A stretch of DNA of 64,000 bases from contig DASPUC010000020.1 in the NCBI GenBank assembly GCA_035623075.1, positions 1 to 64,000 on the forward strand, read 5' to 3'. Below the pieces are notes generated by a model. That model did not search any database. It saw nothing but the letters and a program-made list of their open reading frames with translations, and was not told where the DNA came from. This document shows positions 31,795 through 49,005 of this stretch, piece by piece. A program made the position numbers and the translations under genes. This DNA comes from Nitrospiraceae bacterium. GTDB taxonomy: Bacteria > Nitrospirota > Nitrospiria > Nitrospirales > Nitrospiraceae. Positions within the stretch are counted from its first letter, which is position 1. The number at the start of each line of letters is the position of its first letter.

Positions 31795-32085
31795 CGGTAA
31801 TCCTCCATCGGTGTTGTTGGAGTGATTAGTGGTGGACGGTGGCCTGAACCGATCCCAGACGAAGAGATCGCCCCCCGCTCCAGACGTTGATGATCAGAGT
31901 CCTGCCGCACGATTCCCATCCTTATTTCCACGAGAGCATGATGGTCCCAGTCATTCGCGGTCCGAAAGAGGCGAGGGGGTATTCTTCAACAGAAAGAGAA
32001 TCGAGATCATCTGGTGCTTGGTGTTCGTCTCAATCAATAGGCTGCCATGGTCGCAATCGACGTCCGTGACGTAGTGCCGATATGA
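31795..32085 (+). pseudogene. Degraded NusG/UpxY antiterminator remnant
   Basis: The sequence aligns at DNA level with the C-terminal half of the NusG-like gene at 28242: GGCCTGAACCGATCCC and GACGAAGAGATCGCC recur with few changes, followed by the KOW region and the final I-D-V...D-V-V-P-I-stop at 32083-32085. Frameshifts and the loss of the first half make it inactive. Its stop overlaps the next gene's ATG as ATGA. Bases 31680-31794 before it hold no gene I can recognise. Confidence 0.75.
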
Positions 32086-32759
32086 GACCTTCTGTTAAAG
32101 CATTTATTCAGGCCCGCATGTCCTCGAAGCGATATCCGGGGAAAGTACTGGCCCCGTTTCGAGAAGAACCGTTGATTCGCCACGTTGTCCGGGCAGCGGA
32201 AGCAGTGCTCCTCCGCCGCAATGTGGTGGTCGTGACGAGCACGCATGTAACGGACGATCCGCTAGCCTCCTATCTACAATCGGTTGGTGTGCAAGTATTT
32301 CGAGGCCCGCTCGACAATGTGCTGCAGCGATTTCTCCTGTGTCTGCGCGACCATCCATGTGACTGGGTGTTCCGGATCAACGGTGATAGTCCCTTGCTGT
32401 GGCCAGAGTTAATTCAGATTTTTATGCGAGAGGCTGAGCAGTTCAGCGGGGATGTCATGACGACGATCTTCCCGCGAACTTTTCCAAGGGGACAAAACTT
32501 GGAACTGATCGGCGCCCACGTCTTAAGAGAGCTTGCCGGGGAACCACTGACTTCGGAAGATTTAGAACATGTCACACCTTATGTCTATCGTCATCCCGAG
32601 CGGTACAGGATTACCAACATTGAATCTGGTGACGCGCGGCTGAGCGAAACTAGCCTAGCAGTGGATACGATCGAAGACTTCCGACGGTTGGGCGCGCTGA
32701 CGACGAGTGATCTCCAGCACCTCTTGCCACCTGTTCTTTCGTCACGAGTACTCTCATGA
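32082..32759 (+). CDS. Cytidylyltransferase-like nucleotidyltransferase (SpsF/NeuA-type)
   Basis: A 225-residue GT-A-fold nucleotidyltransferase with the N-terminal signature FIQARMSSKRYPGKVL, the acidic NGDSPLL motif near residue 105 and a late LAVDTIEDF. SpsF/NeuA-like enzymes load CMP onto acidic sugars such as nonulosonic acids. The NeuB-type synthase three genes on makes CMP-activation of a nonulosonate the likely job. It overlaps the NusG remnant by 4 bases. Confidence 0.85.
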   Translation: MRPSVKAFIQARMSSKRYPGKVLAPFREEPLIRHVVRAAEAVLLRRNVVVVTSTHVTDDPLASYLQSVGVQVFRGPLDNVLQRFLLCLRDHPCDWVFRINGDSPLLWPELIQIFMREAEQFSGDVMTTIFPRTFPRGQNLELIGAHVLRELAGEPLTSEDLEHVTPYVYRHPERYRITNIESGDARLSETSLAVDTIEDFRRLGALTTSDLQHLLPPVLSSRVLS

Positions 32760-32787
32760 ACACCACCATGGCTGGGAACGCTAGCCG

Positions 32788-33945
32788 ATGAACGTACCAC
32801 GACAGATTCCGTTCGCCAGGCCATGGATCACAGACGAGGACAGAAAAGCCGTGATGGAAGTCCTCAATGGCCATATTCTAACCCATGGTCCCCAGTGCAA
32901 GTCGTTCGAGCAGGAATTCGCGGAATTTGTGGGTCACGGGGCTCATTGCATCTCGGTGAGTTCCTGCATGGCGGCACTCCACCTGGCTTACCTTCACTTC
33001 GGTATCGGACCGGGGGACGAAGTGATCGTGCCGGCGCAAACACATACCGCGACCGTGCACGCAGTCGAATGGGTAGGAGCCAAACCGGTGTTCGTGGACT
33101 GTGATCCACGCACGGGCAATGTCACGGCTGCGGCGGTCGCAGCCTCGGTCACGTCCAAGACGAAAGCGCTCTCAGTCGTTCACTTCGCCGGGATTCCCTG
33201 TGAGATGCCGGCAATCATGAAAATTGCCGCGGGGCGTGATCTGAAGGTGATCGAAGACTGCGCGATCGCGCTTGGGGCGCACTACGCGGGGCAGCATGTG
33301 GGGCTGTTCGGCGATGTCGGTTGTTTTTCGTTCTATCCGGTGAAGCATATGACTACGGCCGAGGGAGGGATGTTTGTGACTCGTCACGGAGCCGTAGCGC
33401 AGGCCGTCGGCCGCCTCCGCGCGTTCGGGGTCGATCGGACGCATAGTGAGCGGTCGCTGCCGGGAATGTACGACGTGCCGTCGCTGGGGCTGAACTATCG
33501 GATGAGCGAAATGCAGGCCGCCCTTGGACGTTCCCAATTGCAGCGCATGAAGATCGGGCTGGAAAAACGAGCCGCGCTGTTTGAACGGTATCGGCGGTTA
33601 TTGGAGCCGATTAAGGGAGTCCGATTGATCGATTCAGTCGACCCTAAAGCCGCCTCGAGCCACTATTGCGTCAGTCTGGTATTCGAACCACCCTACGCGG
33701 TGAAGCGTGACGAGATTGTCATGCGGCTCAATGCGGCCGGAATTGGAACGAGTATTTACTATCCCCAGCCAGTTCCGAGAATGACGTTCTACAGGAAGAA
33801 GTATGGCATCGAGCCATCGAAGTACTCGATCGCCTCTCAACTCAGCGACCATTCCGTGGCACTGCCCCTGGGGATGCATGTCGAGAATGCGGATGTCGAT
33901 ATGATTATCGCGACCCTGGCGGAGATCTTGAAATCGCCCAGCTGA
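32788..33945 (+). CDS. DegT/DnrJ/EryC1/StrS aminotransferase
   Basis: A 385-residue PLP-dependent sugar aminotransferase with ISVSSCMAALHLAYL, VIEDCAIALGAHY and the PLP lysine in FSFYPVKHMTTAEGG. It probably aminates a keto-sugar nucleotide in the nonulosonate-like cassette, in the position PseC or LegC would hold. It is not a close copy of the aminotransferase at 30543. Confidence 0.9.
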   Translation: MNVPRQIPFARPWITDEDRKAVMEVLNGHILTHGPQCKSFEQEFAEFVGHGAHCISVSSCMAALHLAYLHFGIGPGDEVIVPAQTHTATVHAVEWVGAKPVFVDCDPRTGNVTAAAVAASVTSKTKALSVVHFAGIPCEMPAIMKIAAGRDLKVIEDCAIALGAHYAGQHVGLFGDVGCFSFYPVKHMTTAEGGMFVTRHGAVAQAVGRLRAFGVDRTHSERSLPGMYDVPSLGLNYRMSEMQAALGRSQLQRMKIGLEKRAALFERYRRLLEPIKGVRLIDSVDPKAASSHYCVSLVFEPPYAVKRDEIVMRLNAAGIGTSIYYPQPVPRMTFYRKKYGIEPSKYSIASQLSDHSVALPLGMHVENADVDMIIATLAEILKSPS

Positions 33946-33961
33946 CTGAAGGAGGGCAGAC

Positions 33962-35005
33962 GTGATTGAGTTACGGGGACGAAAGATTGCCTTGATTGGT
34001 GGAGCTGGTTTTATCGGACACAACCTAGCGTTGACTCTCTCCAGATTAGGCGCCGAAGTGCACGTAGTCGATAGCCTCCAAGTTAATAATCTGGGAGCGT
34101 TTTCTAATTCGCATGATGATCAGAACAAGTCACTTTACCTGCACCTTATTAACGAACGGTTGCGACTGCTCACAGAGGCCGCAATCCCATTGCATGTGGT
34201 CGACGCCCGTGATTACCAAGTGTTATCTCGTTGCCTGAGCGACATGAAGCCAGAAACGATTGTGCAACTGGCGGCCATTGCCCATGCTAATCGAGCAAAC
34301 AAGGATCCGTTCAATACCTTCGATCACAGTTTCCGGACGTTAGAGAATGCCCTGGACTGCGCGCGCGGACAGGATCGGCATTTCATTTATTTTTCATCCT
34401 CTATGGTTTATGGAAATTTCGACGGCGGCGCGGTTTCCGAAGATCAACGGTGTGAGCCGCTCGGCATCTATGGTGCTCTGAAGTACGGGGGTGAAAAATT
34501 GGTCATCGCGTATAATCAGGTATTTGGACTCTCTTACACCATTGTCCGTCCATCCGCTCTCTATGGGGAGCGTTGCGTGAGTCGGCGAGTCGGGCAGGCA
34601 TTTATTGAAAATGTTTTACGTGGACTCCCGCTCAGCGTTAATGGAGATGGCGGAGACGCGCTAGATTTCACGTACATCGAGGATTTAATTCAGGGACTAG
34701 TGCTCTGCATGGTGAAGGATGAGGCTCGGAACCAAATTTTCAATCTCACATTTGGCGGATCGAGGACCCTGAAACAGATGATCGATATCGTCCGGGCCGA
34801 GTTTCCCGACGTGCCGGTCAATTACCAGCCGCGAGACAAATTGATGCCCGAGCGCGGAACCTTATCGATCGAAAAGGCCAAGCGGTTGCTTGGGTATGAA
34901 CCGCAGTTCCCGCTTGAAAAGGGGTTCCGGCGCTATATCGAATGGTACAAGAAATTGGCAGAGGAACAACCCCGATTTTTCTCTCCGGCCGCGTCAAAAA
35001 ATTAA
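33962..35005 (+). CDS. NAD-dependent sugar epimerase/dehydratase
   Basis: A 347-residue extended SDR protein with Rossmann motif ALIGGAGFIGHNLA, the catalytic SSSMVYG and Y-G-A-L-K-Y-G (YxxxK), and a C-terminal substrate domain (KRLLGYEPQFPLEKGF). It acts on a nucleotide sugar as a 4-epimerase or a 4,6-dehydratase; sequence alone does not decide. In this cassette it would supply the substrate for the aminotransferase. Confidence 0.88.
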   Translation: MIELRGRKIALIGGAGFIGHNLALTLSRLGAEVHVVDSLQVNNLGAFSNSHDDQNKSLYLHLINERLRLLTEAAIPLHVVDARDYQVLSRCLSDMKPETIVQLAAIAHANRANKDPFNTFDHSFRTLENALDCARGQDRHFIYFSSSMVYGNFDGGAVSEDQRCEPLGIYGALKYGGEKLVIAYNQVFGLSYTIVRPSALYGERCVSRRVGQAFIENVLRGLPLSVNGDGGDALDFTYIEDLIQGLVLCMVKDEARNQIFNLTFGGSRTLKQMIDIVRAEFPDVPVNYQPRDKLMPERGTLSIEKAKRLLGYEPQFPLEKGFRRYIEWYKKLAEEQPRFFSPAASKN

Positions 35006-35023
35006 GAGCACCAAAGTTTATTT

Positions 35024-36040
35024 ATGAAGTTATTCGGAAAGGATTTGGATCACGAGGTCCTTGTGGTCGGCGAAATCGGCGTCAATCACGAGGGCGACGT
35101 CGAGGCGGCGGCCAAGTTAATTCGGCTGGCACACGAGGCCGGAGTCGATGCCGTCAAGCTTCAAAGCTATACGCCTGAACGGCTCGCCTCAACGGCTGAC
35201 CCTATTCGTTTTCAGCGCGTCCGACAATTCTGCCTCGATCGAGCTGCTCATGTCCGTTTGGCTGAAGAAGCCAGGAGGCTTGGTGCGAATCTGTTCTCCG
35301 CAGCGATCACAGAGGATGTTATCCCGCTGCTCGCGGAGCTCTTTCCAGTCATCAAAGTTGCCAGCGGGGATCTGAACTTCGAACCGATCGTGCGCGGTGC
35401 TGCTGTGACAGGAAGAATCATCATTCTTTCAACAGGAAACAGTACGGTCGAAGAAATCGACCAGGCGATAGAGTGGTGCCGGTCGGAAATCGGTGAGGAG
35501 GCAATGCGCGATCATGTTGCATTGCTGCACTGCGTATCGGCTTATCCAGTCCCAATCGAACAGGCCAATCTTCTAAGCATACCGTTTCTTCGCGATCGGT
35601 ACGGTTTGGTCACCGGCTATTCCAATCACGTATTGGGAACAGAAGTGGTGTTGGCGGCCGTAGCGCTTGGTGCCAGGATTATAGAAGTGCATGTGACGGA
35701 CCGGCGTGAAGGTCGAGAGTTCAGGGATCATCACCTGTCTTTTGAACCAAAGGAGTTGGTGCAGCTTATCGAGAGTATCAGAAAAGTCAGCGCGAGCCTT
35801 GGTAAAGCTGAGAAACGGCCCCAGCCTGCCGAAACTGAGATTCGCACCGCTATGAGAAAAGGAGTCGTGGCTGCCCGAGACCTGCGTCCCGGGGTGCTTC
35901 TCACGAAAGACGATCTTATGTATGCCAGACCCGCGAGCGAGTTTCCCGCTGCGGAGCTTCCGCTGCTCTTGGGCCGGCGGTTGAAAGTGGCGCTTCGACG
36001 AGGCGACGTGATTCCACGTGCCGGCGTGGAGGAGGCCTGA
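35024..36040 (+). CDS. N-acetylneuraminate synthase-family (NeuB/PseI/LegI-type) nonulosonate synthase
   Basis: A 338-residue enzyme with a TIM-barrel NeuB domain (VVGEIGVNHEGD, DAVKLQSY, ASGDLNF, LHCVSAYP, GYSNH) and a C-terminal SAF domain (RKGVVAARDLRPGVLL). NeuB enzymes condense phosphoenolpyruvate with a 6-carbon amino sugar to form a nonulosonic acid. Which acid (sialic, legionaminic, pseudaminic or another) cannot be told by eye. Confidence 0.92.
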   Translation: MKLFGKDLDHEVLVVGEIGVNHEGDVEAAAKLIRLAHEAGVDAVKLQSYTPERLASTADPIRFQRVRQFCLDRAAHVRLAEEARRLGANLFSAAITEDVIPLLAELFPVIKVASGDLNFEPIVRGAAVTGRIIILSTGNSTVEEIDQAIEWCRSEIGEEAMRDHVALLHCVSAYPVPIEQANLLSIPFLRDRYGLVTGYSNHVLGTEVVLAAVALGARIIEVHVTDRREGREFRDHHLSFEPKELVQLIESIRKVSASLGKAEKRPQPAETEIRTAMRKGVVAARDLRPGVLLTKDDLMYARPASEFPAAELPLLLGRRLKVALRRGDVIPRAGVEEA

Positions 36041-36050
36041 GGTCGAAACG

Positions 36051-37055
36051 ATGGATTGTTTGCGGGCAGGCATCATCGGCCTCGGGGTAGGCGAGCAACA
36101 TGCGGAAGCACTGGCGGCGATCACGGAGTGTAAACTGGTGGCAGTTTGCGACCGGGATCAACTGAAACTGAAGCAGGTGGCGTCGCGATTTCCCGGTGTG
36201 CGGGCGGTCGACGTCGATCGTGACATTCTCGACGATCCGACGATCGATCTGGTTTGTATCGCAAGCTATGACAGCGATCATTTCTCTCAGACACTGCGCG
36301 CGTTGGAGAACGGCAAGCATGTGTTTGTAGAGAAGCCCTTCGTGATGCATGAACAGGAAGCCCGAATGGTACGAGAGGCGCTTCGGAAGAACAGGCAGCT
36401 GCGGCTATCGTCCAATTTGATTCTCCGCCGCTCGCCGCGGTTTCTGGATTTGCGACGGCGAATTCAGAACGGTGAATTGGGCCGGCTTTACCATGTGGAG
36501 GCGGGCTATAACTATGGCCGGCTCCAGAAGATTACCGAGGGATGGCGTGGGCAGTTGGACTTCTATTCCGCGGTGCATGGCGGGGGTGTCCACGTGGTGG
36601 ACCTGCTGATGTGGCTTACGGGCGACCGGATCGTCGAAGTGTCGGCGGTAGGGAATGCGATTGCCAGCGAGGGGTCGGGATTCAAGAATTTTGACAATGT
36701 GGTCGCGTTGGTGCGGTTCGCGGGCGGCGCAATCGGGAAAGTCGGGGCGAACTTCGGGTGCGTCGCGCCCCATTTTCACTCGGTTGAGTTCTATGGTACC
36801 AAGGCGACATTCGTGAATGGGCGGGAGTGTGCGTGGCTCTTCACGTCGCGCGATGCGAATGTGCCTCCTGTTCGGATCGACACCGCCTACCCGGGCGTGC
36901 ACAAAGGGGCGCTCATCGCTGGTTTTGCGAAAGCGATCGTCGATCGCAGCGATGCAGAGGTGACGGAAGAAGACGTATTTGCCGGTCTGTCCGTGTGTTT
37001 TGCGATCGAGCGCAGCGTGCATGTAGGGTCTCCAGTCAAGGTCGAGTATGTCTAG
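36051..37055 (+). CDS. Gfo/Idh/MocA-family oxidoreductase
   Basis: A 334-residue NAD(P)-dependent oxidoreductase with Rossmann motif AGIIGLGVGEQHAEAL, the EKPFVMHE segment and a C-terminal domain with GGGVHVVDLLMW. It starts 11 bases after the NeuB gene and its end overlaps the GNAT gene by 8 bases. A role in oxidising or epimerising a sugar of the cassette is likely but the substrate is unknown. Confidence 0.87.
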   Translation: MDCLRAGIIGLGVGEQHAEALAAITECKLVAVCDRDQLKLKQVASRFPGVRAVDVDRDILDDPTIDLVCIASYDSDHFSQTLRALENGKHVFVEKPFVMHEQEARMVREALRKNRQLRLSSNLILRRSPRFLDLRRRIQNGELGRLYHVEAGYNYGRLQKITEGWRGQLDFYSAVHGGGVHVVDLLMWLTGDRIVEVSAVGNAIASEGSGFKNFDNVVALVRFAGGAIGKVGANFGCVAPHFHSVEFYGTKATFVNGRECAWLFTSRDANVPPVRIDTAYPGVHKGALIAGFAKAIVDRSDAEVTEEDVFAGLSVCFAIERSVHVGSPVKVEYV

Positions 37056-37806
37056 CGTCTCATCGAGTGTCCGACAGGTCATCACGGCAGGTGGCCTGTC
37101 GATTGTGTACGATTCATGGCTCTCCGAGGTCATGTCGCGGGAAGTCCATCGTGTGAGCGGCAAGGTCGAGGAAGAGGATGAAGCGCAGCGTGCTGTGCAG
37201 CAGATCGCTCACCTTCCCGGGTTTTCCTTCGCGCGAGTGCGAACTGATGATGTGCGGACGACTCAGATGCTTGAGCGCTGCGGGTTTCATCTTGTTGACA
37301 CGGCAGTAACGTTGGAAGTTTCTGGATTGTCTGCCTCGAGTGCAGGGAGCGGTAATGTACGCCTCGCGCGTCCTGAGGATCGCAAGGCGGTTGAGGGGAT
37401 TGCGCGGCGCAGTTTCACCTGTTCACGCTTTCATCTTGATCCGGCCATTCCGAAGTCGCTTGCCGACGAAATCAAAGCGCAGTGGGCGGGTAATTTCTTT
37501 CTTGGGAAGCGGGGCGACCAGATGGTTGTCGCAGAAAAGGCTGGCGAGATTGTGGGGTTCGCCCAACTTCTCAAACCTTCCGGAAACGTGCTCGTCATCG
37601 ATCTCATCGCCGTGGAAAAAACTCATCGCGGGCAGGGTTTGTCAAAAGAAATGATCCGTTTTTCCTACATGTCCTGCGGGCATCCCCGGATCATGCGGGC
37701 GGGGACCCAGATCGCCAACACGGTGTCCTTAGGAGTCTACCAGGACATCGGCTTCCGTATTGTTTCGTCCGATTATGTGTTTCATCACCATCTTGTTATC
37801 GGCTAA
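37048..37806 (+). CDS. GNAT N-acetyltransferase (WecD-like)
   Basis: A 252-residue protein. The C-terminal half is a GNAT domain (VRLARPEDRKAVEGIARRSF; the acetyl-CoA loop VEKTHRGQGLSKEM; ANTVSLGVYQDIGF). The N-terminal half resembles the WecD/RffC accessory region. WecD acetylates a 4-amino sugar nucleotide. Here it probably acetylates the product of the aminotransferase at 32788. Confidence 0.82.
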   Translation: MSSVSSSVRQVITAGGLSIVYDSWLSEVMSREVHRVSGKVEEEDEAQRAVQQIAHLPGFSFARVRTDDVRTTQMLERCGFHLVDTAVTLEVSGLSASSAGSGNVRLARPEDRKAVEGIARRSFTCSRFHLDPAIPKSLADEIKAQWAGNFFLGKRGDQMVVAEKAGEIVGFAQLLKPSGNVLVIDLIAVEKTHRGQGLSKEMIRFSYMSCGHPRIMRAGTQIANTVSLGVYQDIGFRIVSSDYVFHHHLVIG

Positions 37807-37869: not shown

Positions 37870-39699
37870 ATGTGCGGGATTGCAGGATTTGTCGGCACGC
37901 GTCAAATTCCGGACGAAGCAGTGCAATCCTGTCTCAAGCTCATGGGGCGGCGCGGTCCTGACGCGACTGGGGTTCGGCGCTTTGCCGCGTCCGCCGGTCG
38001 TCAAGTGCTGCTCTTGCACAGCCGGCTATCGATCATTGACCTGGATTCCCGGTCGGATCAACCATTCAACATAGGGCGCCGATGGATGGCGCTGAACGGG
38101 GAACTGTACAACTACGTCGAATTGAAGGAACAGTTATCGGCCGATGGCGCCCAGTTTCGAACCAGCTCGGACACGGAGGTGTTTTTGACTGCCATCGACC
38201 GTGAAGGATGGGACACCCTTGACCGGGCAGAGGGCATGTGGGCTCTGGCGGTCTACGACGAAGCCGACGGTAGCCTCACCCTTTGTCGGGACCGCTTCGG
38301 CGAAAAGCCGTTGTACATCGTGCGTGCGCCGGAAGGGATCTATTTCGGTTCCGAGCCGAAGTTTCTGTTCGAGTTAATGAGCCGTCGGCTTCCGGTGAAC
38401 CGGGAGCATCTCTGCCGATATCTCGTCAACGGCTATAAGTCGATCTACAAGACCAAGGAAAGTTTCTTTCAAGGGTTGCAGGAGTTGCCGCCTGCGGGTC
38501 TGTTGCAGGTGGACCGACATGGACATGAGACGGAGACGTGCTACTGGATGCCGAATTATCGGCCGCAGGAATCCATGACCTATGAGGAGGCTGTAGCGGG
38601 TGTACGGGAACGGCTGATTCGGTCCCTGCGGCTTCGCTTACGAAGCGATGTGCCGTTGGCGTTTCTCATGAGCGGCGGGGTGGACTCGAACACCCTTATC
38701 AGTATTGCCAAGCGCATGTGCGATTACGATGTGCACGGGTTCACGATCATGAATACCGACGAGCGCTATGACGAGCGCGAGGTCGTCGAACAATCGGTCC
38801 GAGAACTCGGCCTCCGTCATACGCCGGTGTCGATTACACAAGACCGTTTCCTAGAACGATTGCGCGAACTGGTTCGCTACCACGACGCTCCGGTTTTCAC
38901 GATCACCTATTACGTGCAATGGCTGCTCATGCGGCAGGTCCACAGCCATGGGTACAAGATTTCCGTCAGCGGCACAGGTGCGGATGAGTTGTTCACCGGA
39001 TACTATGACCACCACCTCATGCATTTGGCGGAGATCAAGGGGACTGCGCGTTATCACGCGACGGTCGAGGCTTGGCGACGGTACGTTCAACCGGAGGTAC
39101 GCAACCCGTTTCTCAGCAATCCGGACCTGTTCGTCGAAGATCCGGAGTTCCGCGACCATATTTTCCTCAACAACGAGGGATTCGCCGCTTATTTGACCAG
39201 ACCGTTTCTAGAGCCGTTCACCGAAGAACGCTATACAACGTCGTTGCTGCGTAATCGCATGCTCAACGAGATGTTTCATGAGGCCGTGCGCGTTATTCTG
39301 CACGAAGACGATCTCAACGCGATGTACTACTCCATTGAGAACCGCTCCCCCTTCCTCGATCGTGAACTCTTCGAGTTCTGTTACTCCATTCCGACAGTGC
39401 ATCTTATCCGCGACGGGTTCAATAAAATTGTGCTGCGCGATGCGGTCCGTGGGATTGCACCGAATTGCGTGTTGGATCAACGAAAGAAGGTAGGTTTCAA
39501 TGCGCCCGTGCTGTCTTTCCTGGATACCGGCGATCCCGCAATTCGTGCTCAATTGCTGGAGGACAGTCCTGTATTTGATCTCATTCGACGCGACAAGATC
39601 GGCGACTTGCTGACGAAGCGCGATCTACCAAACAGTGAAAGTAAATTTCTGTTTTATTTCGTGAACACCAAAGCCTTTCTCGAAGAGTTCGCGGCATGA
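37870..39699 (+). CDS. Asparagine synthase (glutamine-hydrolysing) AsnB-type
   Basis: A 609-residue class II glutamine amidotransferase. The ATG at 37870 gives the essential Cys2 (MCGIAGF), with RGPDATG and the glutaminase residues around LNGELYN. A synthase domain follows with the ATP motif LMSGGVDSNTL. In surface-glycan clusters such enzymes amidate uronic-type sugars rather than make free asparagine, which is the better guess here. The open frame upstream to 37807 is not used, because Cys2 must be N-terminal after Met removal. It overlaps the next gene by 4 bases. Confidence 0.93.
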   Translation: MCGIAGFVGTRQIPDEAVQSCLKLMGRRGPDATGVRRFAASAGRQVLLLHSRLSIIDLDSRSDQPFNIGRRWMALNGELYNYVELKEQLSADGAQFRTSSDTEVFLTAIDREGWDTLDRAEGMWALAVYDEADGSLTLCRDRFGEKPLYIVRAPEGIYFGSEPKFLFELMSRRLPVNREHLCRYLVNGYKSIYKTKESFFQGLQELPPAGLLQVDRHGHETETCYWMPNYRPQESMTYEEAVAGVRERLIRSLRLRLRSDVPLAFLMSGGVDSNTLISIAKRMCDYDVHGFTIMNTDERYDEREVVEQSVRELGLRHTPVSITQDRFLERLRELVRYHDAPVFTITYYVQWLLMRQVHSHGYKISVSGTGADELFTGYYDHHLMHLAEIKGTARYHATVEAWRRYVQPEVRNPFLSNPDLFVEDPEFRDHIFLNNEGFAAYLTRPFLEPFTEERYTTSLLRNRMLNEMFHEAVRVILHEDDLNAMYYSIENRSPFLDRELFEFCYSIPTVHLIRDGFNKIVLRDAVRGIAPNCVLDQRKKVGFNAPVLSFLDTGDPAIRAQLLEDSPVFDLIRRDKIGDLLTKRDLPNSESKFLFYFVNTKAFLEEFAA

Positions 39700-40874
39700 C
39701 ACTCTCGGTCCGGCAGGATGAGGGACACACGACCAGCGCTGCGTCGGCGCCGTTGCGGTACTGCAGATCCTGTGTTCTTCCCAACACACGGCCGAATCTG
39801 GCCCTGGATGGGGAAGGGATCTGCAACGCTTGCTTGGTGCACCGGACGAAGCCGACGATCGATTGGAGTGCCCGCCAACAGGATTTCCGCAAACTGGCGG
39901 ACAGGGTCAAGACGAGATCGAATGGATACGATTGCCTCATTCCGGTGAGCGGGGGCAAGGACAGCACCTGGCAAGTCGTGAAATGCCTGGAGTATGGTCT
40001 GACGCCGCTGGCGGTCACCTGGAAGACACCGGCACGCACGCGCATAGGACAAAGCAATCTCGAGAACCTTGTGAGGCTGGGCGTCGATCATATCGACTAC
40101 CAAATCAATCCAAAAGTCGAAAGCCGCTTTATGCTGAAAGCGTTGGAGCGGTTTGGCAGTACGGCTATTCCCATGCATTTGGCTCTGTTCAATATTCCAC
40201 TTACGATCGCCGTCAAATTCAAGATTCCATTGGTTGTTTGGGGGGAGAACTCTGCGTTTGAATACGGCAGTGTCAACGAGAGCCACACCGGGTTCAAGCT
40301 TGACGGGGCCTGGTATAAGACGTACGGGGTAACCCATGGAACTACGGCGGCGGATTGGGTCGGAGATGGATTGACAGCGAAAGAACTGGTCGCGTATTTC
40401 GGGCCGGATCCAGACGAACTGGAAGCCTGCGGTGTCCACGCGATATTTCTCGGATATTACTTTCCATGGGATCCCGTCACGAGTCTGCAGGTTGCTCGTG
40501 CTCATGGTTTCCAGTCAGATCCAGGCGGTGCCCGCACTGGCTACTATGATTATGCGGACATCGACGACGACTTCATCTCCATTCATCACTGGTTGAAATG
40601 GTATAAGTTCGGCTTCACCAGGCTATTCGATAATCTCTCGCTGGAGATACGCAACGGACGTATGACCCGCGAGTGCGCGATTGAAATCATCCGGAAGACC
40701 GCCGATCAAATTCCCGCGCAGGACATTGAAAAGTTTTGTGCTTTCACAGGCATCACGCGCGAGCGGTTTTTTGGAATCTGCGAAAGATTCAGAAATCATG
40801 CGATATGGCAACGTCGTCCGGACGGGTCATGGTATATCCCAGGTTTCCTGATCCCGGACTGGAGGTGGTCGTGA
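39696..40874 (+). CDS. N-acetyl sugar amidotransferase (WbuX/WbpG/PseA family)
   Basis: A 392-residue PP-loop ATPase. A zinc-ribbon start (C-R-S-C-V-L-P ... C-N-A-C) is followed by IPVSGGKDSTWQ and the family's VVWGENSAFEYG. WbuX-type enzymes convert a sugar acetamido group to acetamidino with ammonia from a HisH/HisF-type partner. None is adjacent, but the AsnB just upstream carries a working glutaminase domain and overlaps it by 4 bases. Confidence 0.88.
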   Translation: MTLSVRQDEGHTTSAASAPLRYCRSCVLPNTRPNLALDGEGICNACLVHRTKPTIDWSARQQDFRKLADRVKTRSNGYDCLIPVSGGKDSTWQVVKCLEYGLTPLAVTWKTPARTRIGQSNLENLVRLGVDHIDYQINPKVESRFMLKALERFGSTAIPMHLALFNIPLTIAVKFKIPLVVWGENSAFEYGSVNESHTGFKLDGAWYKTYGVTHGTTAADWVGDGLTAKELVAYFGPDPDELEACGVHAIFLGYYFPWDPVTSLQVARAHGFQSDPGGARTGYYDYADIDDDFISIHHWLKWYKFGFTRLFDNLSLEIRNGRMTRECAIEIIRKTADQIPAQDIEKFCAFTGITRERFFGICERFRNHAIWQRRPDGSWYIPGFLIPDWRWS

Positions 40875-41254: not shown

Positions 41255-42094
41255 ATGGGACGTCCCACGATTCAGTGTCCCTGTGACCGCCGGTTCGATG
41301 AACCTGCATTCAAATATGATGCACCACCCGCTGGTGAAACCCGATTTGAGCTGGGGGGGCAGGCGTATTGCCGCGCCTACTTTCGTTGTGGATTATGCGG
41401 CCACTGGTACTCCGATCATAAAATGGACCTGACCAATCTCTACGACGGCGCCTATGCCGAAAGTACCTATGGGCACCGAATGCGTCAGACATTCGATCGT
41501 ATTCTGGCGCTGCCGGAAGAAAAGTCTGATAACGCCGGACGAGTGGCCAGGATTCTTTCCTTCGCCCGGTCTTTTTTCCCCCACGGGAAAAAGCCCCGGC
41601 TCCTGGATGTCGGGTCGGGGTTGGGAGTGTTTCCCTATCGTATGAAAGAGGCCGGTTGGAAGTGTACCGCTTTGGACCCCGATCCGCGCGCAGCGGCTCA
41701 TGCTAAGGAATTAGTCGGTGTACAGGCTGTGGCGGGAGATTTTCTCTCGATAGGGCCCGATCAACTGGGTGCATTTGACGTCATCACATTCAACAAGGTG
41801 CTCGAACACGTGGAAGACCCGGTTGTCATGCTGTTGAAAGCGTCGCGCCATCTGAACCCGGGCGGGTTTGTCTATGTGGAAGTCCCCGACGCGGAGGCGG
41901 CCGCAGTCGAAGGGCCTGAACGCGAGGAGTTTTTCATCGAGCATAATCATGTCTTCAGTCCGAGCTCCTTGGCGATGATGATTGTGCGTGCGGGATTCCG
42001 AGTCGTAGCACTCGAACGGTTGCGCGAACCGAGTACGAAGTACACGATACGTGCTTTTTTGCAGGCCCCGCTGCCAGAGATTCCTCAAAAATGA
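41255..42094 (+). CDS. Class I SAM methyltransferase with N-terminal zinc ribbon
   Basis: A 279-residue protein. An N-terminal C-x-C ... C-G-L-C-G segment suggests a zinc-binding module. The SAM-binding motif RLLDVGSGLGVFPYRM, the acidic ALDPDP and the post-motif EHVEDPVVML follow. It probably methylates a sugar or an ACP-bound intermediate, since it lies directly before a KASIII gene and overlaps it by 4 bases (ATGA). Confidence 0.85.
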   Translation: MGRPTIQCPCDRRFDEPAFKYDAPPAGETRFELGGQAYCRAYFRCGLCGHWYSDHKMDLTNLYDGAYAESTYGHRMRQTFDRILALPEEKSDNAGRVARILSFARSFFPHGKKPRLLDVGSGLGVFPYRMKEAGWKCTALDPDPRAAAHAKELVGVQAVAGDFLSIGPDQLGAFDVITFNKVLEHVEDPVVMLLKASRHLNPGGFVYVEVPDAEAAAVEGPEREEFFIEHNHVFSPSSLAMMIVRAGFRVVALERLREPSTKYTIRAFLQAPLPEIPQK

Positions 42095-43080
42095 AGCTCC
42101 GCCATATTGCCTACGCGATACCGGATCGGCGAGTGGAAAGCGCGGTCATCTCACAGTGGACCGGGCTTGATTTGCAGTTCCTAACGGAAAAGATCGGTAT
42201 CGAGTCTCGCCGGTTTCTTGGTCGCGAGGAGCAACCGATCGATTTGGCTCATGCGGCGTGCCGAAATCTGTTGTCCGAGTGTCATGAGCTGGATCTTGCC
42301 AGAATCGGCCTTTTGGTCGTGGTCACTCAGAATCCCGATTATAAGATCCCGCATTCCTCTGCGCTTCTTCACCATGCGCTTGGCTTAGGGAAGACTGTCG
42401 CCTGCTTCGATTTAAACTTGGGCTGTTCCGGCTTTGTATACGGCCTATCAGTTGTGAAGAGCCTCATGCTGGCAGAATCTTTGACGGACGCGCTTCTCGT
42501 GACCTGCGATCCCTATTCTCGGATCATCGGAAGAATGGATCGGGATACCGTGGCTCTATTCGGCGATGCGGCGACCGCAAGTTGGCTCTCAGCTGAAGCC
42601 GGAGGTGATTTGGGGAAACCGGATTTTGGTACCAATGGAGCCGGTGCAGAAAATTTGATGGTCAAACTGGGTGGGAGCGCGTATCCCGTTATGTCGATCG
42701 ATGGTGAAGCGAAGGAGGCGGGTTCCGCAGAAGGATATCGGCTCCACATGAATGGGCGCGGAATTCTTGAGTTCATGATGCAGGAGGTGCCGCGGACAGT
42801 GTCACGCTGCCTGAAAAAGAACGGCCTCGAGCTATCGGACATAGACTCTTTTGTGTTTCATCAGGCGAGCCAGTATTTACTCCAGCAGTTGCGAAAGAAA
42901 CTAGGGCTTGCTCCGGAAAAGGTTCCCTGCAACATTAGGGATGTTGGCAACACGGTGTCTTCTTCCATTCCTCTTCTTCTGGCACAGTTGCAAACCAAGG
43001 AAGGTTTGGCCGGAAAACGGATATTGGTGTGTGGGTTCGGCGTCGGACTGTCCTGGGCGACCAACGTCATCCAATATTGA
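42091..43080 (+). CDS. 3-oxoacyl-ACP synthase III (KASIII/FabH-like)
   Basis: A 329-residue condensing enzyme. The catalytic cysteine is in NLGCSGF at residue 112, the histidine in FVFHQASQ and the asparagine in DVGNTVSSS, so the Cys-His-Asn triad is intact. It would condense an acyl-CoA with malonyl-ACP or transfer an acyl group. The neighbouring ACP and AAC(3)-type acyltransferase suggest a dedicated acyl donor for sugar N-acylation instead of general fatty acid synthesis. Confidence 0.9.
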   Translation: MKLRHIAYAIPDRRVESAVISQWTGLDLQFLTEKIGIESRRFLGREEQPIDLAHAACRNLLSECHELDLARIGLLVVVTQNPDYKIPHSSALLHHALGLGKTVACFDLNLGCSGFVYGLSVVKSLMLAESLTDALLVTCDPYSRIIGRMDRDTVALFGDAATASWLSAEAGGDLGKPDFGTNGAGAENLMVKLGGSAYPVMSIDGEAKEAGSAEGYRLHMNGRGILEFMMQEVPRTVSRCLKKNGLELSDIDSFVFHQASQYLLQQLRKKLGLAPEKVPCNIRDVGNTVSSSIPLLLAQLQTKEGLAGKRILVCGFGVGLSWATNVIQY

Positions 43081-43089
43081 AGGAGACTC

Positions 43090-43338
43090 ATGAATCAACA
43101 GCAAGCTCTCGAAGCTATTCATGCCGCGTTGAGAAAAACTTTGGATCGAGCGGATATTTCTGTGACGATAGAAACTGATCTTGTGGAAGAGAAGATTGTC
43201 GATTCGTTAGACGGCATGATGTTTCTTCTCGAGCTTTCCGGTGTGACAGATAAGAAATTTCCCGAGAGCGATCTGGTAAAACTTGGATTTTTCAGGGTCA
43301 GAAAACTGGTCGAGTTTCTAACGGACTCTATCGGATAA
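43090..43338 (+). CDS. Acyl carrier protein-like protein
   Basis: An 82-residue, helical, acidic protein with the phosphopantetheine attachment serine in the D-S-L-D motif (residue about 38). The usual ACP spacing is kept. AAGGAG lies upstream. It lies between KASIII and an acyltransferase, which points to a private carrier. Confidence 0.85.
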   Translation: MNQQQALEAIHAALRKTLDRADISVTIETDLVEEKIVDSLDGMMFLLELSGVTDKKFPESDLVKLGFFRVRKLVEFLTDSIG

Positions 43339-43375
43339 AGGGCTCGGTGCTGTTCGGCTTCAAACAGGCGCAAAT

Positions 43376-44260
43376 ATGAAAAAGTTGGAGAAGGGGGAGT
43401 TGATCCAAGCCCTGCGAGCGGCTGGAATAGCGCGCGGCGACGTCGTTCATGTGCAGAGCGATCTATTACGTATAGGGCCCGTCAATTGCGGACCGGGTCG
43501 GGAGGCGCCTCTCTGTTTTTATCTTGAGGCGTTTCAAGAATTGCTTGGGACTGAAGGAACGTTAACGACCTGTACGGCCTTCGAAGACTACGGCCGTTAC
43601 GGAACGCCTTTCGTTAGGGAAGAATCCCCCTCTCGTTTAGGAGCGTTCAGCGAATATATTCGAACTCGACCAGGGGCTGTTCGCTCGATGCATCCGATCG
43701 TGTCGGTGACGGCTGTAGGTCGTCGGGCGACTGAACTCTGCGGGGGGCATCATTTCGATGGGTTCGGATATGCATCTCCATGGGGGCGCCTTCATCAATT
43801 AAATGCGTGGATTCTTACGCTAGGGATGGATTCCATGGGCGGAGGCACCACCTTTTTCCATTATGTGGAAAAGCTCTATGGTGTTCCCTACCAGTATACG
43901 AAACTGTTCCCCTATGAAGTTTATTCGAATGGTCGACTCGTCGAAGGCCCCTTCACTATGTCGGTGCGGTACTTAGACTATGGAATCGTCAATACACCGG
44001 TGCGGGTCAAGAAACGCATGGTGGATTTGGGGGAAGCTAAAGAGGTAAGAACCGGCTATGTATCGAGCTGGTGTGCCAGGACTCACGCTATCGTTGCTCG
44101 TATGATGCAAATGTTCGATGAGAACAGATGGGTGATGCTCCAGGAGCCGCCCAAGTTCCGCCCTGGGGAAATCCCCATGGACGGAGTCACCGGAGATATG
44201 CGGGTATATTACGACAAGTCTGCAGCCGGAAGGCACGATGAACCACTCCCACCCGGTTGA
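43376..44260 (+). CDS. AAC(3)-family N-acyltransferase
   Basis: A 294-residue member of the aminoglycoside 3-N-acetyltransferase fold: GDVVHVQSDLLRIG near the N terminus, TLTTCTAFEDY, the HPIVSV motif and the late GGGTTFFHYVE. In polysaccharide loci such proteins acylate amino sugars, not antibiotics. The adjacent ACP suggests it may use an acyl-ACP. Its end overlaps the next gene by 23 bases. Confidence 0.82.
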   Translation: MKKLEKGELIQALRAAGIARGDVVHVQSDLLRIGPVNCGPGREAPLCFYLEAFQELLGTEGTLTTCTAFEDYGRYGTPFVREESPSRLGAFSEYIRTRPGAVRSMHPIVSVTAVGRRATELCGGHHFDGFGYASPWGRLHQLNAWILTLGMDSMGGGTTFFHYVEKLYGVPYQYTKLFPYEVYSNGRLVEGPFTMSVRYLDYGIVNTPVRVKKRMVDLGEAKEVRTGYVSSWCARTHAIVARMMQMFDENRWVMLQEPPKFRPGEIPMDGVTGDMRVYYDKSAAGRHDEPLPPG

Positions 44261-44883: not shown

Positions 44884-46269
44884 GTGATGATCACGCCTCA
44901 AATCTGCGGTTCGGCGATGCTTGACTTGACAAGGGATCTGTGCGCGTTTGCCACCGGTGTTGTCGCCGACGACAATGAAAAACTGTTTGCCCGCATCGGG
45001 AAGGAGCTGCAACTGAAGCTGCACCGCTACAAGTCCGACGATACCTACAACGGTTGGGTTGTTCCGAAGAATTGGCGTGTGATGAAGGCGGAAATCCGGC
45101 GGGACGGCAAGGTGCTCTTCGATGGAACTGTCCATACACTCGGCGTGGCCCGTTATTCCAAAAATTTCAAGGGAGTCCTGTCGTGGGAAGAGTTGAAGCC
45201 GCGATTGGTCACGCGTCCGGACCTGCCCGGCGCCTACGTTTTCCACTGCATGTGGCAGTACCGCCCTTGGGCGGCAGATTGGGCCCTGTCGGTTCCCTAC
45301 TACATACATCGAGAATTCGGACCCGGTCGTTATGAAGTCGATCTTCAGACTGAATATAGCCAAGGGGAGATGCTGGTTGCTGAACACAACAAAAAAGGGC
45401 GGAGCGACAAAGTCATCGTATTCCACTCGAATTCCTGTCACCCGCACATGGCGAACGACGGGTTTGCGGGGACGGCGTTGTTGATCCGACTATTTCAATG
45501 GCTTGCCGGCCAGGACACCTACTACACCTATCGATTGGTTATCGGGCCGGAGCACGTGGGAACGATTTTCTACCTGCGGGACATGCCGAGGTCCGAGTTG
45601 CAGAGGATCGTCTGTGGCGTCTTCGAAGAGATGCCTGGCACGATGGGGCCGATCAAGGTCACCTCGACCTTCGCAGGCGGGCATATCCTCGACCGGGCCT
45701 TCGCCAATGTGGTCCGCCATCACGCCAAAGCGTACGCGCTGGTGCCCTGGCGGCAGGGCGCCGGAAATGACGAAACGGTATGGGAGGCGCCTGGCTATGA
45801 AGTTCCCTTCGTCGAGGTCACGAGATCCGAAGCGCTGATGCAGCCTTATCTCGAGTATCACACCAGCATGGACTCACCGGAGCTAATGAATCCGCTTCAG
45901 CTGGAGGAGCTGCTCGACGTGTTGAAAAGAGTGGTAGAAGTGCTGGAAGGGAATGCCAGGATGCATCGCACGTTCGACGGGCTCATCTGTCTCTCGAATC
46001 CCGCGTACGACCTGTACATGGAACGAAAGGATCCCGCGATCGCGAAAAATCTCCCCGACGATTCCGAGAAGTGGGGGTATCTGTTGGATTGCATCCTCCG
46101 CTATTTCGATGGATCGATGACCGTGCTCGACATCGCGGAGAAGCACGATCTGCCGTTCGAACGAGTCCTGGCCTATGTGCGTCGTTTCGAGGAAAAGGGG
46201 TTGGTCCGGACCGAGTTCGTGCCGATGTCTCGCGCCATGCCGCATCCAATGGACGGGACGAGACGATGA
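44884..46269 (+). CDS. DUF4910 zinc-aminopeptidase-like protein with winged-helix tail
   Basis: A 461-residue DUF4910 protein. The central domain has M28-type metal residues (HSNSCHPHMANDGFAG, GPEHVGT, and a later HTSMDS). The last 60 residues form a winged-helix-like module (SMTVLDIAEKHDLPFERVLAYVRRFEEKGLV). DUF4910 genes are common in surface-sugar clusters; whether they cleave peptides or sugar amides is unknown. The start is a GTG; an ATG at 44887 is next. It overlaps hisH as ATGA. Confidence 0.8.
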   Translation: MMITPQICGSAMLDLTRDLCAFATGVVADDNEKLFARIGKELQLKLHRYKSDDTYNGWVVPKNWRVMKAEIRRDGKVLFDGTVHTLGVARYSKNFKGVLSWEELKPRLVTRPDLPGAYVFHCMWQYRPWAADWALSVPYYIHREFGPGRYEVDLQTEYSQGEMLVAEHNKKGRSDKVIVFHSNSCHPHMANDGFAGTALLIRLFQWLAGQDTYYTYRLVIGPEHVGTIFYLRDMPRSELQRIVCGVFEEMPGTMGPIKVTSTFAGGHILDRAFANVVRHHAKAYALVPWRQGAGNDETVWEAPGYEVPFVEVTRSEALMQPYLEYHTSMDSPELMNPLQLEELLDVLKRVVEVLEGNARMHRTFDGLICLSNPAYDLYMERKDPAIAKNLPDDSEKWGYLLDCILRYFDGSMTVLDIAEKHDLPFERVLAYVRRFEEKGLVRTEFVPMSRAMPHPMDGTRR

Positions 46270-46898
46270 TCGCCCTGGTCGATCTGAGAATCAGCAACGT
46301 TGGATCCATTCGGCACGCGCTTGCGCGGGTCGGCTGCCCTGACACCGTAGAAGCCACGGCCGCCTCCGTTCCCCGCGCCTCCGCGCTGATCATTCCGGGC
46401 GTCGGTTCCTTCGGGGACGGCATGGCCAGCTTGCGGGAGCAAGGCCTCGTCGAACCGATCCGGCGCGCGGCGCAGGAAGGCATGCCCCTATTTGGAATTT
46501 GCCTCGGTATGCAGCTGTTGGCATTCGAAAGCGACGAGCACGGGCGTCACGAAGGGTTGGGGTTACTCGAAGGGCGGGTGGTCACCCTCGCTCCGACCGA
46601 CCCCCGGTTCCGTGTCCCCAATATCGGCTGGTGCGACGTCCGGAGCATCCGTTCCGGCGTCTTGTTCGGCGACCAGCCCGGCGGTTGTTTCTATCACGTG
46701 CACAGTTACCACCTCGTTCCGAAGGACCGGAGAGTGATCGCCGCCGCCATCGACTACAGCGGTCAGGAAATTGTAGTGGCAGTGGAGCAGGAGAATATCT
46801 TCGGCGTTCAGTTCCATCCGGAGAAAAGCCAGGACGACGGCCTTGATTTTCTGGCCCGGTTTGTCCGCCACGCCGCCGCTCCCGTTCACAGCCGGTGA
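46266..46898 (+). CDS. HisH-type glutaminase subunit
   Basis: A 210-residue class I glutamine amidotransferase with the catalytic cysteine in GICLGMQLL and the histidine/glutamate pair in VQFHPEKS. It supplies ammonia from glutamine to a HisF-type partner. Since the next gene is a HisF domain that lacks the normal cyclase aspartate, it probably serves acetamidino sugar formation instead of histidine synthesis. Confidence 0.9.
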   Translation: MIALVDLRISNVGSIRHALARVGCPDTVEATAASVPRASALIIPGVGSFGDGMASLREQGLVEPIRRAAQEGMPLFGICLGMQLLAFESDEHGRHEGLGLLEGRVVTLAPTDPRFRVPNIGWCDVRSIRSGVLFGDQPGGCFYHVHSYHLVPKDRRVIAAAIDYSGQEIVVAVEQENIFGVQFHPEKSQDDGLDFLARFVRHAAAPVHSR

Positions 46899-46908
46899 GA
46901 CGTTCCGC

Positions 46909-49005
46909 ATGACGCGACCGAGACTCATTCCCGTGCTCCTGCTGAAGCACGGAGTGATCGTGAGAAGTCAATTGTTCAAGGTGCATCAGGTCATCGGGAA
47001 TCCGATGAGCACGGTGCAACGGTTGTCCAATTGGAACGTCGACGAGCTGATCCTGCTCGATATCAGCAAGAACGACTTCCATGATCTCCGGCGCGACGAC
47101 CTTCAGCAGCGCTACCAGGGGACATCGGCGCTGGACGTGCTGCGCGAAGTCGCCAAGGTGTGCTTCATGCCGTTGACCTTCGGCGGGCGCGTGCGCACGC
47201 TGGAGGACATCCGCTCCCGGCTCGAAGCAGGTGCCGACAAAGTGGTGATCAACACGGCGGCGCTCGATAAACCGGCCTTCGTCCGCGAAGCCTCGGCCCG
47301 TTTCGGGGCGCAATGTATCGTGGTCTCAATCGACGCCGTCCATCGGCTGGCCGGGTGCTATGAAGTCATGGCGGAGGACGGACAGCGGGCGACCGGTCTG
47401 AAGCCTCAGGAATGGGCCCGCCAAGTGCAGGACCTTGGAGCGGGAGAAATATTCCTCAACTCAGTCGATCGCGACGGTTCCGCAAAAGGGTTCGATCTCG
47501 AGCTTGTTCGTCGCGTCGCCGCCGCCGTCCGCATTCCGGTCATCGCGTGCGGTGGGGTCGGAAAGTACGCGGACTTCGCTCCCGGCATTTTGCAGGGTGG
47601 CGCCGCCGCCGTCGCCGCCGCGAACATTTTTCACTTTTTCGAATCCTCTTATCCGCTTGCGAAGGAGGCATGCATCGAGGCGGGTGTGCCGATGAGGCCG
47701 GTTAAACTGGACAGCCGTTGGCAGCGTCGGGAACCCGAGTACGACGACGCGTTCGAAAACCGGCGCATCGAAGACCGTCTCAGACGGGCGCGCGAACATG
47801 ACTATGTCGCTGGGCAGCCGAGGGCCGTGAAGCAGCGGATTCGTTGGTGCACGCGATGCCTCTATCCATCTATCAGCGCGGCACCCACGGAGTTCGACGA
47901 GGCCGGCGTGTGCATGGGATGCCGTATGGCAGAGGTCAAGACGGCGATCACTCCGTCAGAATGGAAGCGACGCAGGGAGCTCTTGCGCGAGATTCTGGAA
48001 CGGTATCGATGCCGAGACGGTAGCCGCCACGATTGTGTCATTGCAGTCAGCGGCGGCAAGGACAGCTGGTTCCAGACCCACGTGATCAAACACGAATTCG
48101 GGCTGAATCCGCTTCTCGTGACGTATGACGGCAACAACTGGACGCCACCCGGCTGGCGGAACATGATCCGGATGCGGGAGGTCTTCGGTTGCGATCACGT
48201 CGTCTGCCGCCCTTCCGTGGAAGTGTTGAAAAAGCTCAACCGTCTCGCGTTTATTGTCATGGGCGACATGAACTGGCACGCGCACGTCGGGATCACGACG
48301 GCGCCGGTCCGGGTGGCGGCGGAGCACCGGATTCCGCTTGTGATTTGGGGGGAGCACGGCTATTTGGATCTGTGCGGCCAGTTCTCGATGGACGATTTTC
48401 CTGAAATGAGTTACCGCGATCGGCTCGAGCACTTCGCTCGGGGGTATGAGTGGAATTATTTCGTTGGCAAAGAAGGTCTGACGAGCCAGGACATGATCTG
48501 GTGGAAGTATCCCAGTGATCGGGAGTTGTTCGATTTGGACATCCGGGGCATCTATCTCGGCAATTACGTTTATTGGGAGGCCAACGAGCACGGCAAGATG
48601 GTCGTGGATAAGTACGGGTTCGAGGTCAGCGACATCGCGTTCGAGCGGACCTACCGCCGCATGTCCAATCTGGACGATATGCATGAGAACGGTGTGCACG
48701 ACTACCTGAAATACATCAAGTTCGGCTATGGCCGGTGTACCGATCACGTCTGCAAGGACATCCGTGCGGGTTTGATGACCCGTGCAGAAGGATTGGCGTT
48801 GGTGAGGCGAATGGATCCTGTGAAGTCGAGCGATCTGAATCGATGGTTGGACTATGTCGGCATGACGGAGGAAGAGTTCGATTCGATCGCCGATACGTTC
48901 CGGGATCCTCGCGTGTGGCGTATGGAACAGGCCCGCTGGACCAAAGACGAGCCGGAAGCCTGCACCTCATACAAGCAGTCGGACGCGATGGTGAAACAAC
49001 GATGA
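46909..49005 (+). CDS. Fusion: HisF-like ammonia channel + WbuX/PseA-type N-acetyl sugar amidotransferase
   Basis: A 698-residue fusion. Residues 1-255 are a HisF-type (beta/alpha)8 barrel, but the catalytic aspartate at position 11 of normal HisF (CLDVKDG) is leucine here (PVLLLKHG), while the second aspartate is kept (VSIDAVH, D142). Residues 310-690 are a WbuX domain: zinc cysteines at 314, 317, 335 and 338, and the PP-loop SGGKDS at 381-386. With HisH this makes a complete amidotransferase: glutaminase, ammonia conduit and sugar amidinating enzyme. In Pseudomonas these are separate genes (hisH2, hisF2, wbpG). Confidence 0.92.
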   Translation: MTRPRLIPVLLLKHGVIVRSQLFKVHQVIGNPMSTVQRLSNWNVDELILLDISKNDFHDLRRDDLQQRYQGTSALDVLREVAKVCFMPLTFGGRVRTLEDIRSRLEAGADKVVINTAALDKPAFVREASARFGAQCIVVSIDAVHRLAGCYEVMAEDGQRATGLKPQEWARQVQDLGAGEIFLNSVDRDGSAKGFDLELVRRVAAAVRIPVIACGGVGKYADFAPGILQGGAAAVAAANIFHFFESSYPLAKEACIEAGVPMRPVKLDSRWQRREPEYDDAFENRRIEDRLRRAREHDYVAGQPRAVKQRIRWCTRCLYPSISAAPTEFDEAGVCMGCRMAEVKTAITPSEWKRRRELLREILERYRCRDGSRHDCVIAVSGGKDSWFQTHVIKHEFGLNPLLVTYDGNNWTPPGWRNMIRMREVFGCDHVVCRPSVEVLKKLNRLAFIVMGDMNWHAHVGITTAPVRVAAEHRIPLVIWGEHGYLDLCGQFSMDDFPEMSYRDRLEHFARGYEWNYFVGKEGLTSQDMIWWKYPSDRELFDLDIRGIYLGNYVYWEANEHGKMVVDKYGFEVSDIAFERTYRRMSNLDDMHENGVHDYLKYIKFGYGRCTDHVCKDIRAGLMTRAEGLALVRRMDPVKSSDLNRWLDYVGMTEEEFDSIADTFRDPRVWRMEQARWTKDEPEACTSYKQSDAMVKQR

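Follow-up and report, generated by a model that had tools for sequence, protein, structure and literature searches.

How glutamine nitrogen reaches WbuX-type amidotransferases has so far been assumed from gene neighbourhood, and because acetamidino sugars occur on the surfaces and flagella of several well-studied bacteria, the mechanism is of wider relevance. The question is raised in compact form by a 64,000-nucleotide stretch from a Nitrospiraceae bacterium (assembly GCA_035623075.1, contig DASPUC010000020.1), hereafter the window, in which hisH, the gene of a class-I glutaminase subunit, is followed by a gene encoding a HisF-like barrel and a WbuX-type domain in one polypeptide. All three components of the HisH-HisF2-WbuX acetamidino module are present at 46266-49005, with HisF2 and WbuX in a single open reading frame (ORF). 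We consider it likely that they constitute a glutamine-dependent acetamidino synthase of this type, in which the conduit and the synthase are covalently fused. A natural fusion of HisF and WbuX is strong evidence that both act as one complex.

ORF analysis of 46266-49005, the span originally given for HisH plus the fusion, revealed two plus-strand genes, hisH and the HisF-WbuX fusion, the latter confined to 46909-49005. The fusion ORF as listed extends from 46843 to 49005. Because its homologues align from the ATG at 46909, this codon is almost certainly the true start, giving a protein of 698 residues. Searches against NCBIfam showed that residues 312-661 match WbuX TIGR03573 with 305.6 bits, above the curated cut-off of 203.2, and that the hisH product matches TIGR01855 with 182.5 bits (cut-off 105.4). 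Residues 1-243 match WbuZ TIGR03572 with 258.9 bits and HisF TIGR00735 with 219.4 bits, below the respective cut-offs of 299.7 (equivalog) and 294.55, and the HisF domain scores 221.6 bits against AglZ/HisF2 NF038364, below the equivalog cut-off of 310. Since the scores fall under all three curated cut-offs, the domain is named HisF2/WbuZ-like here and filed in none of these families. Four bases (ATGA) are shared by hisH, at its start, and the DUF4910 gene upstream, at its end, and the stop codon of the fusion overlaps the start of the downstream methyltransferase gene, again as ATGA.

More distant relatives usually have separate adjoining genes, as would be expected if an assembly or frame artefact had joined two neighbours here. 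A scan of one genome per species in 84,980 species found 80 relatives, of which 77 loci could be scored: 40 carry a single-ORF fusion and 37 have two genes, the three further relatives being incomplete. Because its queries were peptides from the window protein, the scan favours the fused clade; independent fusions elsewhere would be missed, and the 40 fused loci are a lower bound. The public fused proteins share 48-80% identity with the window protein over the aligned length and were recovered from metagenome bins as well as from isolates, some of the latter named (e.g. L041, L045, L051 and L062). By their record labels they belong to Pseudomonadota, Thermodesulfobacteriota, Myxococcota, Cyanobacteriota, Verrucomicrobiota, Actinomycetota, Planctomycetota, Armatimonadota and Fidelibacterota, making ten phyla together with the Nitrospirota of the window. 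In the tree of the WbuX domain the fused proteins form one clade with support of 100/100, and the fused or split state changes once in 100% of the bootstrap trees, a value as low as which was found in 0 of 500 shuffles. The HisF-domain tree also places them in one clade (support 97). The original prediction had named separate genes in close relatives as the sign of an assembly error; the outcome favoured the fusion. Assembly error is refuted by 40 single-ORF copies from independent assemblies, named isolates included, that form one clade, and the chance of any such artefact is practically nil. The predicted fusion beside HisH was therefore borne out, and a single origin without observed reversal is the simplest account suggested by the trees.

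Several further candidates for the fused architecture were rejected. Long ORFs tabulated for two Burkholderiales genomes (G504 and G522) are in fact separate genes, as are the genes of a viral contig (L152) that has both domains. Six records of a plasmid collection cover most of both domains at 31-36% identity, and where annotated their genes are annotated separately.

The fusion was absent from 395 other sampled genomes of the host phylum, the best match there being two separate genes with 57% and 43% identity. The closest fusions, at 77-81% identity, are found in Burkholderiales and one alphaproteobacterium. Among 120 genomes sampled at order level around the nearest Burkholderiales carrier, that carrier alone had the fusion, which is therefore rare. 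For a flanking gene (4532-7036), the host's relatives have full-length matches of 71-90% identity, and contig contamination as the source of a foreign gene was rejected on this ground; the contig very probably belongs to the host genome. Because no sampled genome of the phylum is fused, the flank is host-like and the closest fusions lie in other lineages, the cluster was probably acquired horizontally. The best reading of these comparisons is that the two genes fused once and then spread by horizontal transfer.

Positions 11 and 130 and the residues kept from canonical HisF are given below in the numbering of the Thermotoga maritima enzyme unless marked as window, and the gate residues R5, E46, K99 and E167 are those of the same enzyme. 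In histidine biosynthesis Asp11 and Asp130 form the catalytic pair of HisF (PMC5919458), and ammonia travels about 25 Å from HisH through the barrel to its opposite face (PMC8115485). The replacement of Asp11 by leucine and the retention of the second aspartate (Asp130, window D142), both claimed earlier, were confirmed. Of 41 fused proteins, 39 have Leu at position 11 and none has Asp. Among the separate cluster-type HisF proteins, 36 have a residue at this position, and each of them carries Leu, Tyr, Phe or Asn in place of Asp. No variation occurs at Asp130 or Asp176 in either group. Because the separate cluster-type proteins also lack Asp11, its loss is a trait of the whole group and predates the fusion. 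The fusion as cause of this loss is thus ruled out, and the idea that it explains why cluster-type HisF left histidine synthesis does not hold, as all 36 separate proteins share the loss. Histidine synthesis is, judging from gene content, served by a separate canonical HisF: the genome of the window has a second HisF with a CLDV motif beside a HisA-like match, and a canonical HisF with Asp11 was also read in 11 of 18 fused genomes examined. In another genome, that of L065, a second cluster-type HisF with a VLLL motif (L139) lies inside a 390-residue open frame, besides the fusion.

On the gate and HisH side of the barrel, R5, D45, E46, D98, K99, Q123, E167 and R249 are kept in canonical, separate and fused HisF, the canonical set containing at least two HisA-like rows. 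The window protein keeps all four gate residues (window R5, E46, K111 and E180), which are present in every member with sequence there. At the mouth, K19, L26, R27 and S225 are switched to Arg, His, Gln and Asn, and the new near-invariant residues are R19, H26, Q27, R62, D64 and N239, with R62 and D64 lying in an RRDD-type insert of about 12 residues after strand 2. These invariant polar residues, together with the invariance of D130 and D176 in fused and separate proteins, might indicate that the HisF domain uses the two aspartates to catalyse a reaction itself, perhaps on the sugar or on an adduct, instead of serving as a passive conduit. We regard this as very improbable, since Asp11, which is essential in the histidine enzyme (PMC5919458), is lost throughout, and the WbuX domain holds all parts expected for activation and transfer.

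The glutaminase carries the triad Cys79, His184 and Glu186, which all 40 available HisH proteins from fused loci possess and which is likewise conserved in those from split loci. Since 39 of 40 fused loci have hisH as a separate gene, with a 3-kb contig as the one exception, the system consists of two proteins, HisH and the fusion. The synthase had been described as one-piece; HisF and WbuX are indeed joined, but the glutaminase is separate in every fused locus where it is visible. The WbuX domain contains a tetracysteine (C314, C317, C335 and C338) and the PP-loop SGGKDS (381-386), motifs found in all 41 fused proteins (the PP-loop as SGGKDS type), and is predicted to make the acetamidino group on the sugar. 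Between the domains, the near-invariant residues R274-E275-P276-x-Y278 and R290 and a helix at 280-295 mark the linker. This segment is not seen in the separate genes, where most HisF proteins stop at about residue 263-265 and the WbuX proteins begin near the first cysteines; because of these boundaries, the linker seems to be a novelty of the fused clade that is held under constraint.

Structure prediction with AlphaFold gave a predicted local distance difference test score (pLDDT) of 89.4 and a predicted template modelling score (pTM) of 0.89 for the 698-residue protein, and values of 85.7 and 0.87 for a marine cyanobacterial member with 48% identity. The barrel of the model matches HisF 1gpw (Z 34.5, 2.0 Å), and the C-terminal part matches the N-acetyl sugar amidotransferase 8wex (Z 38.3 over 351 residues, 30% identity). 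As such pTM values are hard to reach otherwise with domains of about 265 and 385 residues, we infer that the relative placement of the two domains is fixed and confidently modelled.

Based on these features, we propose the following reaction path. HisH would dock at the barrel bottom and hydrolyse glutamine. The ammonia would pass through a barrel that has given up imidazole chemistry and exit at the former active-site mouth, rebuilt with the six near-invariant residues listed above. The conserved linker would hold the WbuX domain at this mouth, where the domain would activate the N-acetyl carbonyl of the sugar with adenosine triphosphate, yielding adenosine monophosphate and pyrophosphate, so that ammonia displaces water to form the acetamidino group. 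The substrate would most likely be a nonulosonic acid or its cytidine monophosphate (CMP) form. The fusion also opens the question of what turns HisH on once the normal HisF ligand is gone, a role that the loaded WbuX domain might take.

Several points weigh against this proposal. To our knowledge, no activity or product measurement exists for any fused protein. The HisF domain lies under the curated cut-offs of both WbuZ (299.7) and AglZ/HisF2 (310). The domain placement was judged from pLDDT and pTM values, and the tunnel and docking face are proposed features. Finally, switching at the mouth relative to the bottom was not significant (p = 0.15), with 12 of 16 switched positions on the mouth face and kept positions divided into 26 top and 25 bottom; because of this result, mouth-face remodelling is a tentative reading that rests on a small number of clear switches. 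The fusion might also simply keep its two partners side by side and in the correct ratio, with ammonia freed in solution near WbuX and no sealed channel, as the WbuX pocket of a solved relative has been described as unusually wide and open (PMC10607449). This is a rather unlikely alternative, since the high pTM values of two divergent members point to a fixed arrangement, the linker is conserved and structured, and the gate residues are retained wherever sequence is available. Given the conservation of the gate residues and of the HisH triad, and the confidence of the two-domain model, a physical link of the ammonia conduit to its consumer is the most economical reading of sequence and model. 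The single chain with HisH makes the assumed ammonia hand-over testable and offers a handle for structure determination and channel tracing.

The known three-gene modules of Escherichia coli O145 and Pseudomonas aeruginosa O5 were compared by description. Both modules, WbuX-WbuY-WbuZ of the former and WbpG-HisH2-HisF2 of the latter (naming partly from PMC10607449 and PMC11340318), are built from the three component types found here and share the tetracysteine and SGGKDS motifs of WbuX. However, they consist of three separate proteins, whereas here HisF and WbuX form one chain with a conserved linker and a single clade. The separate cluster-type HisF proteins examined here resemble the fused ones in lacking Asp11. 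LpNASAT of Legionella pneumophila (8wex), the one solved structure found for this type of amidotransferase, shares the fold, the zinc tetracysteine and the PP-loop of the WbuX domain but has no HisF domain, and its structure paper is silent on HisF, HisH, glutamine and a channel. Compared with T. maritima HisF (1gpw/1thf), the fusion has the barrel fold, gate residues, Asp130 and Asp176 in common and differs in Asp11 to Leu, K19 to Arg and remodelled loops after strands 1 and 2. The yeast HisHF (HIS7) and its bacterial and archaeal copies are also covalent fusions that include the HisF barrel, but there the glutaminase is joined to an active HisF, whereas here a HisF without Asp11 is joined to the ammonia consumer (PMC1963479, PMC11237513). 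A HisF-WbuX fusion was not found described in the literature searched, most subscription journals lying outside that search. It is a real and apparently previously undescribed architectural variant of a known enzyme system.

The features of the locus and its surroundings are collected in Table 1.

Table 1. Coordinates of the HisH/HisF-WbuX locus and neighbouring genes in the window.
Feature	Coordinates	Strand	Basis
hisH, class-I glutaminase subunit, 210 residues, own gene	46266..46898	+	ATG 46266, stop 46898; TIGR01855 match
HisF-WbuX fusion protein, 698 residues	46909..49005	+	Single ORF, two family matches, AlphaFold, 40 public loci
HisF2/WbuZ-like (beta/alpha)8 barrel domain, residues 1-265	46909..47703	+	Family matches, alignment, structural match
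Linker, residues 266-312 (about 45 residues)	47704..47844	+	Comparison with separate HisF and WbuX genes
WbuX-type N-acetyl sugar amidotransferase domain	47845..49002	+	TIGR03573, 8wex match, motifs
DUF4910/DUF2172 aminopeptidase-like gene, C-terminal winged helix	44884..46269	+	PF16254, 149.3 bits
Second WbuX paralogue without its own HisF/HisH	39696..40874	+	TIGR03573, 326.2 bits
AsnB-like class-II amidotransferase, Cys2 present, adjoining the second WbuX	37870..39699	+	TIGR01536, 365.8 bits
Nonulosonic-acid genes	32082..37806	+	CMP-sugar transferase-like (cytidylyltransferase-like), PseC-like aminotransferase, SDR dehydratase/epimerase, NeuB/PseI-like synthase, oxidoreductase, GNAT acyltransferase

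The upstream region is, from its gene content, a nonulosonic-acid cluster, in which the NeuB-like product scores 248.6 bits against TIGR03569 (curated cut-off 399.65) and the PseC-like product 302.5 bits against TIGR03588 (cut-off 423.5); with scores under the curated cut-offs the exact sugar cannot be named. Because of this neighbourhood, an acetamidino nonulosonic acid appears the likeliest product. Such sugars are known in Legionella (PMC3694923) and Campylobacter (PMC3958885). Known WbuX and WbpG enzymes act on ordinary O-antigen or capsule sugars (PMC10607449), and a substrate such as FucNAc or ManNAc3NAcA would be compatible with the proposed mechanism. This substrate is unlikely given the NeuB-, PseC- and cytidylyltransferase-like genes of the window and given that, although many contigs are short, 16 of 40 fused loci have a NeuB homologue no more than 10 kb away. 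As regards the preferred nonulosonic-acid product, the flagellin glycan locus of Campylobacter jejuni (PseA, Cj1295) likewise makes acetamidino nonulosonic acids. We know of no HisF-WbuX fusion in that locus. Cj1295 is an aminopeptidase-like protein altering such a sugar in Campylobacter (PMC3068675) and is, by description, reminiscent of the DUF4910 gene of the window.

Three neighbours are more frequent in fused than in split loci, by raw counts that include related genomes and many short contigs: a DUF4910 homologue (17/40 versus 2/37), a second WbuX (14/40 versus 1/37) and a second AsnB-like homologue (16/40 versus 0/37). The second WbuX and its adjoining AsnB-like gene (37870-40874) co-occur in several fused loci, and this AsnB-like neighbour suggests another nitrogen supply for the second WbuX. 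We tentatively put forward, as a somewhat doubtful extension, that a large part of the fused clade carries a mobile operon of the order AsnB - WbuX1 - methyltransferase - DUF4910 - HisH - HisF:WbuX - methyltransferase - AsnB2. Its two WbuX enzymes would modify one nonulosonic acid with separate nitrogen supplies, one through the HisH/HisF channel and the other from the neighbouring AsnB-type glutaminase, and the fused enzyme would form a closed ammonia channel from the glutaminase via the retired barrel into the covalently docked PP-loop enzyme.

The second AsnB-like protein of the window (51643-53553) begins with MSRITGF, and so is without the glutaminase nucleophile Cys2, but retains SGGMDS, the PP-loop of the synthetase. 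Two products encoded in the cluster at 42091-44260, a FabH-like ketoacyl synthase and an AAC(3)-like N-acetyltransferase, suggest an unusual N-acyl group on the sugar. In addition, ten IMG/VR viral contigs (L152-L161) have WbuX-type genes, one of them with a separate HisF and several near NeuB-, NeuA- or DegT-like genes, and viruses may thus carry sugar-amidination genes.

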